NCBI GenBank assembly: GCA_944390805.1
Contig: CALXQW010000029.1
Coordinates: forward strand, 1 to 64,000
Source: an uncultured Opitutales bacterium
Lineage (GTDB): Bacteria; Verrucomicrobiota; Verrucomicrobiia; Opitutales; Intestinicryptomonadaceae
Direction: 5' to 3'
DNA length: 64,000 nt
Under the pieces are notes generated by a model. It saw only the letters and a program-made list of their open reading frames with translations. It was not told the DNA's origin and searched no databases. The position numbers and the translations under genes are program-made. Positions 1 through 3,201 of the stretch are shown in pieces (positions within the stretch are counted from its first letter, which is position 1; the number at the start of each line of letters is the position of its first letter).

Positions 1-77
1 CTCGAACACGCTCGTTAAGCTCTCAGCCGCCGATGGTAGTGCGCCCCCGCTGGTGCGCGAGAGTAGGTCGTTGCCAG
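1..77 (+). rRNA. rrf: 5S ribosomal RNA, 3' part
   Basis: The window opens inside a 5S rRNA. The visible segment has the usual 3' half: the stretch ending in cgatggtagtgcgccc, a short stem closed by ctggtgcg, then gagagtaggtcgttgcc, which matches the conserved end of bacterial 5S molecules (GAGAGUAGGUCGC-type). The 5' part lies outside the window. It is followed by a strong terminator, so it is probably the last gene of an rRNA operon running in from the left. The exact 3' end is uncertain by a few bases. Confidence 0.9.
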
Positions 78-83
78 TACTAT

Positions 84-568: not shown

Positions 569-2140
569 TTAATTGTTCCTATAACCATCTATTCTTAGTT
601 TACTTTCCTCATCTAGAAGGGTGTCTTTCATTGTTAGAACCTTGTCTCCCAAGAGTATGGTTATATTGTTATTCTCGTATGTAAGAATTATGCATACTAT
701 GGATTTACCTTCTTTCGATTGCAGAGATACCTTTTCGCAAGTGTTTACAACTTGTTCTATAAGAGCATCAACCTGTCTTTGGATATCTTCTCCTTCCGCT
801 ATCATCTTACCACCTTTACTTAGCATGTTACGGCCGTTTCTGCGTGTTGACTCCATTGATACGTGCCGCGCCAGAGTAGTTCCGGCAGCTGCTATGTAGT
901 CTTGAGATGCAGCAAGAGACTCACCTTCTTTCACAAGTTTTTGTCCGTCTCTAATAAGATTTTTTGCCTTAACTAACAGTGCTTTTGAATTGGCCAACTG
1001 CTTTCTAATATCTTGGTTTTCAATTCTTGCCTGTTGCTCTCTTCTTGTGCCTATATCTGAAACGGATTCTTCAAAAGTCTCAAAAGAGTCTCCTATCTCG
1101 ATATTAGCAGACTTCTCTAGCAGTTTACATATTGATACCTTTTCTCCCAGATAACCATTTACTTCAGCTATACCTATTTCTTTTGTCTTGTATCCGTATA
1201 TCTCTCCGCTAACAGGGTCTTTTATTGCATCTGATTTCCTTAGAATTCGCAGTCTAGTTCCCCTCTTGAGAATCTTATTTATATACACGTAGCTTGTATC
1301 AACTTGAACTACAGAAGGTGGATATATGGATTCCTCAAACTTCTTTGCAATATCTGTGGCAAGCCGTTTTGCAGACAAATCTATGAGCTCATCGCCAAAC
1401 TCTCCGTTCCTTCTTCTTACACCCTTCTCTATTTCGGATCCTGACTCATCAATCTCGCTAGATATTGAGGCAATAAGCTTTCCTGTTGTTATATCCATTA
1501 TTCTGGTTATGGCTGATAGGCTGAATATCCTTTTTTGAGTGTTGTCGCTATCTTCAAATCTATCGATAAAATCTGTTATGACGGTGTTGATTGCATATAT
1601 CTTCATGCCGTTTGAAAAACGTGCAAATGCTGCTATGTTATCAAGCGGTATCTCTGGATGATTGAATATCTCAAATCTTCCTGTTGCAAAAAATGCATGT
1701 TCAAGCTTGGATGGCATAGCATCTCTTATTCTAAGTATGGAATATCCTTCTGTAGTTTTGCTTGTGTATGAATACCTTATATTATTTGAATGAGATATAT
1801 CTGTATTGCCGGAGTTACTTAGGAAATTTATATTTCTTACGGATACATCGTTACTTGTCGCCTCGCCGGAAAATTGCGCTGAATCTTTGGAGAGGTTTCT
1901 GTTTCCGGAATATGTGCCAACACTGTTTATGTGTTGTCCCGAGTGAAGTTCTTCTGACCTTCCTCTTTTTAATGAAGATATCCTGTTACTCTCAGATCCG
2001 GAAATAGATATAGTTTTCCTTTCCAATGAGTACTTCTCTAGTAGGGATTCATTTATGCCGATGTCTGTTAGGATTACGCTTATTTTTTGCGGAGGTTCGC
2101 AATATCCGTATGCGGTGCAAAATATGGCTATACATACCAT
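569..2140 (-). CDS. Secreted CsgG/FlgT-like protein with C-terminal coiled coil
   Basis: 523 residues. The first 15 residues are hydrophobic, and the frame stays open upstream through basic residues (NLRRICH), so the real start of the signal peptide may be a non-ATG codon before 2140. Residues about 35-130 are rich in Ser and Asn. Residues about 145-260 resemble the CsgG fold: a GRFEIFNH-type strand, a segment like ITDFIDRFED and RIMDITTGKLIASI, as in outer-membrane CsgG/LpoB-like lipoproteins. Residues about 275-350 look like the C-terminal domain of FlgT (DPVSGEIYGYKTKEIGIAEV). Residues 367-470 are predicted helical/coiled coil. No Cys lipobox is evident. The exact role is unknown; an envelope location is likely. 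Its promoter appears to lie on an invertible segment (see 2252-2431), so expression is probably phase-variable. Base composition is AT-richer than in the rest of the window. Confidence 0.65.
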   Translation of the reverse strand: MVCIAIFCTAYGYCEPPQKISVILTDIGINESLLEKYSLERKTISISGSESNRISSLKRGRSEELHSGQHINSVGTYSGNRNLSKDSAQFSGEATSNDVSVRNINFLSNSGNTDISHSNNIRYSYTSKTTEGYSILRIRDAMPSKLEHAFFATGRFEIFNHPEIPLDNIAAFARFSNGMKIYAINTVITDFIDRFEDSDNTQKRIFSLSAITRIMDITTGKLIASISSEIDESGSEIEKGVRRRNGEFGDELIDLSAKRLATDIAKKFEESIYPPSVVQVDTSYVYINKILKRGTRLRILRKSDAIKDPVSGEIYGYKTKEIGIAEVNGYLGEKVSICKLLEKSANIEIGDSFETFEESVSDIGTRREQQARIENQDIRKQLANSKALLVKAKNLIRDGQKLVKEGESLAASQDYIAAAGTTLARHVSMESTRRNGRNMLSKGGKMIAEGEDIQRQVDALIEQVVNTCEKVSLQSKEGKSIVCIILTYENNNITILLGDKVLTMKDTLLDEESKLRIDGYRNN

Positions 2141-2251
2141 ATGACAAATCCTGCGAAGATTATAGAACTTATATGGAATTCGTAGACGATGAATGCTCTG
2201 CCTAAATCTAGGAAGGAGGGAGAAATTTCTATATACAGTTTCTTTGAAATG

Positions 2252-2277
2252 TCCAAATAAACGGACGTTTATTTATG
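2252..2277. repeat. Left inverted-repeat crossover site of the invertible promoter
   Basis: A 26-bp site built like a serine-invertase site. The 9-bp arms AAATAAACG (2255-2263) and CGTTTATTT (2266-2274) flank the central dinucleotide GA (2264-2265). The right site at 2406-2431 has identical arms but TC in the centre, so the two sites are in opposite orientation. As I recall, class I invertible promoters of Bacteroides fragilis have a similar core, ARACGTWCGT. Confidence 0.75.
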
Positions 2278-2326
2278 CATGGATAAGATTTTTTCAAAAA
2301 ATACAAAGGAATTGTATTATAAAAAG

Positions 2327-2355
2327 AATATATTCTCTTAAATAAGCGTTGGAAA
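2327..2355 (-). promoter_or_regulatory. Candidate promoter inside the invertible segment
   Basis: On the minus strand, TTTCCA (2355-2350) and TATATT (2332-2327) are separated by exactly 17 bp: 4/6 and 5/6 matches to the sigma-70 hexamers. Transcription would start near 2320 and read through the left site into the CsgG-like gene, with a leader of about 180 nt. The region is AT-rich, so chance matches are possible. Confidence 0.45.
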
Positions 2356-2405
2356 CAGTCGGATAATAAAACAAGAAAGTAAAGATGTTCTTATGGCAAA
2401 TAATG

Positions 2406-2431
2406 ACAAAATAAACGTCCGTTTATTTATG
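2406..2431. repeat. Right inverted-repeat crossover site of the invertible promoter
   Basis: Arms AAATAAACG (2409-2417) and CGTTTATTT (2420-2428) flank the central dinucleotide TC (2418-2419), the complement of GA in the left site. It lies 33 nt before the invertase start codon. Both sites are followed on their right side by atgc, so outer flank similarity is in direct orientation, while the core is inverted. Confidence 0.75.
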
Positions 2432-2464
2432 CGTAATATAACATGAAAATCAAGAACTTTTATA

Positions 2465-3085
2465 ATGAATGGTAAAAATATAACTATATATGCATATATA
2501 CGCGTGAGTTCTGATAAACAAACTGTGGAGAATCAGCGCTTTGAAATAGAACGTTTCTCAAGTAATAAGAATATAGTTGTTGATAGATGGATATCTGAAA
2601 CTGTAAGCGGCGTAAAAAGGGCTTCCGATAGAAAACTCGGGAAGATTCTTCGACGCCTGCGCAGAGGAGATATTGTTATTGTATCTGAATTATCACGTTT
2701 GGGCCGCAGTCTCATGCAAATTATGGAAATACTGAATTTTTGTATGGAAAGAGATGTTCGCGTTATGTCGGTAAAAGAAAATTATGAGTTTGGGGACGAT
2801 ATAAACTCTAAAGTTCTTGCATTCGCATTTGGTTTAAGCGCCGAAATAGAAAGAAAGCTGATATCCCAACGAACTAAAGAAGCCTTGTACATGCGGCGCT
2901 CAAAGGGGATTGTTCTTGGACGTCCAAAAGGGAGTAAAAGCGCATTTTTGAAATTGTCAGCAAGATCAAAAGAGCTGCGCTTATGTTTGGAGTCTGGTAT
3001 TAGCAAGGTTGAAATATCTCGGAGATTTTCCGTTAGCCGATCAACCTTAAACTTATATTTGCGCAATAATCATTGTGCTGCATGA
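2465..3085 (+). CDS. mpi: Mpi-family serine DNA invertase
   Basis: 206 residues, the usual length of small serine recombinases. The catalytic serine motif YIRVSSDKQT is at residues 11-20 (Ser15), followed by VENQRFEIERF, typical of the resolvase/invertase N-terminal domain. ELSRLGRS and the E-helix segment AFAFGLSAEIERKLISQRTK agree closely with Mpi, the multiple-promoter invertase of Bacteroides. LGRPKGS links to a C-terminal helix-turn-helix (GISKVEISRRFSVSRSTLN, about residues 177-195). It would cut at the paired sites at 2252-2277 and 2406-2431 just upstream and invert the segment between them. No convincing ribosome-binding site precedes the ATG. It could also act on sites elsewhere in the genome. 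Confidence 0.92.
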   Translation: MNGKNITIYAYIRVSSDKQTVENQRFEIERFSSNKNIVVDRWISETVSGVKRASDRKLGKILRRLRRGDIVIVSELSRLGRSLMQIMEILNFCMERDVRVMSVKENYEFGDDINSKVLAFAFGLSAEIERKLISQRTKEALYMRRSKGIVLGRPKGSKSAFLKLSARSKELRLCLESGISKVEISRRFSVSRSTLNLYLRNNHCAA

Positions 3086-3201
3086 ACATCATGGCATGTT
3101 TCAATAACACTGTTTGATATGCTTAAAAATGAGAATTATGAATTTATTTCTGATAGGATTTTTGTTGATAGAAATGCGTGCTAAGGCAAAATAAGAACGA
3201 T

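Follow-up and report, generated by a model that had tools for sequence, protein, structure and literature searches.

The window analysed here is a 64,000-nucleotide stretch of DNA from an uncultured Opitutales bacterium. Near its start, two palindromes lie beside a gene for a serine recombinase, and the question raised by this locus is what the recombinase switches. The original prediction was a phase switch in a non-Bacteroides lineage, in the form of an invertible promoter with its own Mpi-type invertase. The analysis agrees with an invertible segment beside an Mpi-family invertase in Opitutales, but reads the switched unit as more than a promoter. It is probable that the locus is a self-contained phase switch in which Mpi-family inversion of a 154-bp segment toggles the translation start of a gene for an exported protein, a mechanism that we infer from an anatomy repeated at several loci. 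The features of the locus are as follows.

569–2272, minus strand: cargo ORF for an exported protein with a FlgT/CsgG/PelC-like domain and a coiled-coil tail, open from the site to the stop at 569–571
2248–2278 and 2402–2432, no strand: direct repeats of 31 nt that include the sites, missed in the original prediction
2255–2274, plus strand: left recombination site, AAATAAACG-GA-CGTTTATTT, exact, crossover centre 2264–2265, inverted repeat of the right site (20/20)
2266–2417, no strand: invertible segment between the centres (152 bp; the exchange interval is 154 bp counting one centre), defined by in-silico inversion
2273–2275, minus strand: predicted OFF-state in-frame stop TAA, abutting the left site directly before ATA-AAC, 10 nt before the centre
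2291–2320, plus strand: candidate promoter TTTTCA-18-TATTAT, directed toward the ATG end of the segment, 9 of 12 positions, not above chance
2327–2355, minus strand: promoter-like TTTCCA-17-TATATT of the original prediction, pointing away from the invertase, not above chance
2393–2446, plus strand: segment-borne start codon (ATG 2393–2395) and its ORF, in the present state a dead-end ORF of 17 codons (MANNDKINVRLFMRNIT and a stop)
2409–2428, plus strand: right recombination site, AAATAAACG-TC-CGTTTATTT, exact, crossover centre 2418–2419
2465–3085, plus strand: Mpi-family serine DNA invertase of 206 aa, Resolvase domain and C-terminal HTH_7 (NF009949, PF00239)

The invertase and its paired sites

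Comparison with curated families showed that the window invertase matches NF009949 ('master DNA invertase Mpi family', PRK13413) with 297.2 bits against a cut-off of 272, the alignment placing residues 8–203 of 206 on model positions 2–197 of 203. This full-length match bears out the prediction of an Mpi-family invertase gene beside the sites. The Pfam Resolvase model (PF00239) matched at 1.7e-31, and HTH_7 at 6e-4, which is below that model's cut-off. The catalytic serine and arginine motifs, YAYIRVSSDKQT (RVSS) and SELSRLGRS (SRLGR), are intact and aligned with those of Bacteroides relatives, and the nearest solved structures are a DNA-invertase (4m6f/3uj3) and gamma-delta resolvase. In a tree, the window enzyme and the enzyme of a second unit on contig C13 of the same genome are sisters and stand beside a Bacteroides cluster (support 97/78). 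The window enzyme would, on these sequence grounds, invert the adjacent segment.

The two 20-bp palindromes with identical arms and the centres GA and TC were both found exact at the predicted positions. The right-site centre TC is the reverse complement of the left-site centre GA, and neither is self-complementary. Serine recombinases of the Mpi type swap strands at the 2-bp centre, and the centres must match for religation. Because the two centres are complementary only in antiparallel alignment, exchange would be forced to invert the segment and not to delete it, so the arrangement is suited to inversion as had been proposed. The sites are 154 nt apart from start to start and their arms 134 nt apart; the 152 bp given in the prediction is the interval between the centre dinucleotides (2266–2417). 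The sites do lie upstream of the invertase gene, but the gene begins 36 nt after the right site and not 30 nt. The 64-kb window contains no other match to the site at up to three mismatches (0.04 expected by chance), and two site matches occurred in 0/100 shuffles. The core AAACG-NN-CGT resembles the class I core of Mpi as given in the original prediction (ARACGTWCGT). After inversion the right site would become a 28-bp palindrome, GCATAAATAAACG-TC-CGTTTATTTATGC, and the present state of the window would fit a recombinant of two longer palindromic sites.

Reading frames of the invertible segment

The segment between the centres was inverted in silico and all frames were read in both states. 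In the present state, the ORF that starts at ATG 2393 stops after 17 codons at TGA 2444–2446, before the invertase gene. Inversion places ATG GCA AAT AAT GAC AAA ATA AAC GTC CGT TTA TTT ahead of the cargo frame, which stays open across the site and gives a product of 573 aa, MANNDKINVRLF followed by GHFKETVY(RN)...LRRICHMVCIAIFCTAYGYCEPP... The ATG lies 25 nt from the crossover centre, equal to the distance in the C13 unit, and the ribosome-binding sequence before it is weak. This in-frame ATG, read through the right-hand site, and its joining to the far ORF by inversion were missed in the original prediction. The window locus is presumably OFF as assembled, because an in-frame TAA stands 10 nt before the crossover.

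The switch would then work as follows. The Mpi-family recombinase (2465–3085) would bind the two palindromic sites and cut at their 2-bp centres, GA and TC, and the 154-bp segment would invert. One end of the segment would supply ATG 2393 and the codons for ANND-KIN.RLF, and the other the in-frame TAA at 2273–2275. In the ON state, the ATG would be joined in frame through the site to 569–2272, and the 573-aa protein would carry an N-terminal extension encoded by the segment and the site. In the OFF state, which is the assembled one, the cargo frame would begin with a stop, and translation from the ATG would end after 17 codons, ahead of the invertase gene. Speculatively, a promoter linked to the ATG would drive the invertase while the cargo is OFF, because the ATG end then faces the invertase, and would cease to do so when the cargo is ON. 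That inversion takes place, and which state is ON or OFF, are deductions from these sequences.

Depending on the state, the window cargo frame thus leads to the segment ATG or to a stop, but the cargo ORF also has an internal ATG at 2140, its first, 44 codons in. With AGGA 8 nt before it, this ATG could serve as a segment-independent start of the cargo gene; the 44 open codons upstream of it have a chance probability of about 0.08. The switched unit is best read as a translation start, that is, an ATG and codons that continue through the site, and not merely as a promoter. For the window, this reading draws on the parallel with the C13 unit (locus L005) and with locus L030 of a relative, described below, and ATG 2140 keeps a promoter-only reading alive.

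The predicted promoter TTTCCA-17-TATATT is present, but it lies on the minus strand and at chance level. Promoter-like matches numbered 5 in 421 bp compared with 2.9 +/- 1.9 in shuffles, which is not significant. Candidate hexamers are at chance level in the window and absent from the L005 segment and from L030, so that the hexamer search gave no convincing promoter in the three segments. The segment may nevertheless also carry a promoter.

The cargo protein has a hydrophobic N-terminal stretch and the coiled-coil tail, and its domain is related to short paralogues found in gene clusters of CsgG/PelC/LpoB-like type. A Pfam search with the protein gave no match. An AlphaFold2 model was of moderate confidence (mean pLDDT 60), and Foldseek on this moderate model found FlgT (3w1e, 5e-10) and also HpaA, GNA1162, PelC (5t11) and CsgG (4uv2). 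The predicted fold is therefore like that of periplasmic or outer-membrane assembly proteins. On the other side of the cargo gene, the contig starts inside a 5S rRNA gene (window 1–79, plus strand; Rfam RF00001, 25 bits, below the gathering score, 5'-cut); the window start is the end of an rRNA operon, which is common for MAG contigs.

Related units and rival explanations

One further site pair was found in the genome (G000), on contig C13 (L005), with centres GT/AC, 151 nt from start to start: AAAAAAACG-GT-CGTTTATTT and GAATAAACG-AC-CGTTTTTTT (AAA-TAAACG type). It adjoins the only other Resolvase-family gene of the genome, whose product scores 295.5 bits against NF009949. In-silico inversion joins GAGGTATCCT-ATG AGT TAT GAT TAC AAA ATA AAC GAC CGT TTT TTT to the frame of a lipoprotein, which in the inverted state reads MSYDYKINDRFF-STLKKYIHFILRLLIISQILIVVCSC. 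Both the ATG, which GAGG precedes, and the OFF stop TGA lie before the centre, at 25 nt and 10 nt, respectively, and the locus was assembled OFF. Outside the segment, the first in-frame ATG, GTG or TTG of the L005 lipoprotein gene is at codon 76, well past the lipobox. Unswitched paralogues in this and related genomes have Met where L005 has Leu (CTG), which suggests that the native start has been lost and replaced by that of the segment. The lipoproteins (G000:C13:11838-13685) form a large paralogous family of 560–700 aa with homologues in 15 of 19 family genomes, confined within the search to the Opitutales family of the window, and one copy is under the switch. At the right end of the C13 unit (L005:7729-7744), homology to the genome G001 resumes at CGTTTTTTTCTTGATAAA, preceded by AAAAGGA; this near-match to a recombination half-site, exactly at the junction, may be left from an integration event of the invertase or may have arisen by chance.

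The original prediction had raised the possibility that the invertase controls a regulon. A genome search at 0–3 mismatches did not support this, returning only the two pairs, each with its own enzyme. A 'master' invertase with dispersed sites was ruled out by the same result, with two pairs only and centres GA/TC versus GT/AC. Two other AAACGNNCGTTT matches in the genome are single and lie inside open frames. As the arms are shared, the differing centres should stop recombination between the two units, even if the enzymes bind each other's sites.

Similar site pairs, whose absence from relatives would have counted against the switch, were found, with complementary centres, immediately before the invertase genes at L030, L029 and L027, all three in the family of the window. 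L030 (G005, same family; sites TT/AA; enzyme 289.3 bits against NF009949) precedes a C5 DNA methyltransferase gene, after which come type II restriction enzyme and helicase-domain protein genes. No in-frame ATG, GTG, TTG or CTG occurs in the 40 methyltransferase codons that follow the site; the one conventional start of this frame is carried by the segment. This locus was assembled ON, reading MKTNQNLTPEGVQ-INQRL-...VISLFSGCGG (MKTNQNLTPEGVQ-INQRLSKHNKKNQKNVISLFSGCGG), and inversion brings TGA 10 nt before the centre. Inside the invertible segment (L030:1116-1132), a perfect palindrome, TCGGCAAAATTTGCCGA, lies between one site and the methyltransferase start and is terminator-like or may be an operator. 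L029 (G012; sites GT/AC; 272.6 bits, barely over the cut-off) stands before brxA-brxB-brxC (BREX). Its brxA frame stays open across the site. In one state a segment ATG precedes the centre by 15 nt, and in the other a stop precedes it by 12 nt; since the models of BrxA begin about 30 residues downstream, the native start is ambiguous. L027 (G007; sites TT/AA; 328.5 bits) stands before an HKD-SNF2 defence-type gene that has its own GGAGG-GTG start and no frame through the site. L027 would thus be at most a promoter switch, and translation switching would not be universal among the units.

Taken together, the three unrelated cargo genes of the window, L005 and L030 read through the crossover in one common frame (x-ATA-AAC-NNN-CGT) and have the stop at the same place. 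The start-switch anatomy is full in L005 and L030, limited to frame and stop in L029, and absent in L027. The centres are complementary in all five units, the outer arms in L027, L029 and L030 are decayed matches, and both states occur among the assembled loci (window and L005 OFF, L030 ON). In the three relatives, the Mpi-family units stand before BREX (L029:5212-10811), the methyltransferase/REase/helicase operon (L030:419-3909) and HKD-SNF2 (L027:5747-10520), and are candidate phase-variable anti-phage defences.

The congeneric genome G001 aligns collinearly with the window from position 3151 on, at 82% identity, but is without the invertase, the sites and the cargo; its tgt-aroC gap is about 175 bp, compared with a 2.8-kb C13 unit in this genome. 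Because G001 lacks both units cleanly, both would come and go with their cargo. An order-wide search of 373 genomes with a paired-site pattern too strict to catch the degenerate pairs of L027, L029 and L030 matched 20 genomes, and complementary centres were found only in the two pairs of this genome; the remaining AAACGNNCGT pairs look like chance. No cassette was found at other Mpi-family genes at 22 Verrucomicrobiota loci in a phylum search, some of them with short upstream sequence, nor at the 80 best loci of a contig search, judged by the site pattern within the available flanks. The three Mpi-type copies of G004, and G047, have no paired sites. A single origin of the cassette was not supported: the tree, which long branches make unsure, does not group the five cassette enzymes apart from three f1 enzymes without sites.

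Two other arrangements were seen near Mpi-family genes. In other phyla, many of these genes stand beside long inverted repeats, GGACGATTTTTCTAAACAGAAAAT..., 700–840 bp apart (L028:5399-10670 in G068, the same as L083; L062, L064-L067, L073, L092, L093, L104 and L107). In L028, the repeats link a silent 300-aa cassette with the end of a 1230-aa restriction-modification-like protein, which probably serves to shuffle target-recognition domains. In the 700 nt ahead of the Mpi-like gene of L031, a distant relative, two copies of a palindrome, TCTGTGCAAC-TG-GTTGCACTGT and TTTGTGCAAC-TG-GTTGCACAGT, stand at about 250 and 600 nt; they share identical centres and are perhaps a resolution or operator site.

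Could the window be a plain invertible promoter, in which transcription alone is switched, the cargo starts at ATG 2140 and the segment ATG is incidental? Invertons, those of Mpi type included, usually act by flipping a promoter (PMC4747536, PMC13343947), L027 combines the same site type with its own GGAGG-GTG start, and the AGGA before ATG 2140 is a possible ribosome-binding sequence. We regard this reading as unlikely, given that the L005 and L030 cargo genes are without a conventional start outside the segment, that the ATG distance of 25 nt is common to the window and L005 and the stop distance of 10 nt, in the cargo frame, to the window, L005 and L030, and that the promoter named in the original prediction is at chance level. 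It is somewhat less likely still that the locus is a frozen relic, formerly invertible and now locked. The MAG was assembled in one state, and the decayed outer arms of L027, L029 and L030 would suit such a history, but the window has perfect arms (20/20) and an intact invertase ORF that retains the catalytic RVSS and SRLGR motifs.

The palindromes might also be operators or resolution sites that serve autoregulation, or deletion and excision by a resolvase. Resolvases do act as autorepressors that bind paired palindromes ahead of their genes, and the flanks in the window are direct repeats. Against this, the centres are complementary and not identical in 5/5 units, excision by direct pairing of GA with TC would leave mismatches, the enzyme belongs to the Mpi invertase family and not to the Tn3-type resolvases, and sub-sites II and III are lacking, all of which makes this explanation very improbable. 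A Tn3-type resolvase/res system as such was ruled out by the centres GA and TC and by the presence of two sites only. Inversion that toggles the translation start is thus the reading that we prefer. A wider form of it, held tentatively, is a portable start/stop translation switch, in which an Mpi-family invertase and a segment of 125–155 bp, with the site translated in a fixed frame, may have been joined to unrelated genes (FlgT/CsgG-like, lipoprotein, cytosine methyltransferase of an R-M operon, perhaps brxA) and may be gained and lost together with its cargo as a compact island, with the centres insulating the units from one another.

Known systems and biological meaning

The window enzyme is in the same curated family (NF009949) as Mpi of Bacteroides fragilis and is a tree neighbour of the Bacteroides cluster. 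Mpi inverts 13 scattered regions, of which seven are capsule promoters (PMC4747536), whereas here each invertase has one adjacent site pair, the two units have different centres, and the segment would give the start codon. Within the same phylum, the Akkermansia cps1 inverton is a short segment upstream of a surface locus, with both orientations shown; in the part of its description available, it is a promoter switch with the repeat motif CGGATT..AATCCG, unrelated to AAATAAACG, and an adjacent Mpi-family cassette is not reported (PMC13343947).

The serine invertases Hin and Gin also have a 2-bp centre and a dedicated local site pair. The Hin gene sits inside its own segment, and Hin needs an enhancer and Fis; the window invertase gene, in contrast, lies outside the segment, and its product belongs to NF009949. 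In Mycoplasma Vsa/Vpma, Ureaplasma MBA/UU172 and Campylobacter fetus Sap, inversion likewise decides which gene gets the expression signals. In the Vsa/Vpma, MBA and Sap systems one expression site is exchanged among several gene copies, mostly by tyrosine recombinases, whereas here a stand-alone 154-bp start/stop segment would toggle a single gene by means of a serine recombinase. Intragenic or gene-altering inversions, in the work of Chanin et al. from 2024 and Milman et al. from 2023, reportedly change coding sequence and not only promoters. The literature includes cases of inversion at the Ureaplasma MBA N-terminus and in Vpma (PMC3047005, PMC2268961), and in a defined gut community just over half of all invertons overlap a CDS (PMC11892184). 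The inverton as a general kind is therefore known, and the new element would be the variant that switches a translation start.

If the proposed switch is true, toggling of translation would keep the OFF state leak-free even under read-through transcription. The ON protein would have a site-encoded N-terminal tag that can be searched for in proteomics data (MANNDKINVRLFGHFK, MSYDYKINDRFFSTLK and, for L030, MKTNQNLTPEGVQINQR). Scans for invertons only between genes, or trust in annotated starts, would misannotate the cargo; gene callers do put the start of the L005 lipoprotein at an internal Met after the lipobox. Two site pairs with identical-looking arms in one genome would make a natural test of insulation of serine invertases by the centre dinucleotide. 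Finally, the units before the restriction-modification operon, BREX and HKD-SNF2 would make anti-phage defence phase-variable in gut Opitutales.
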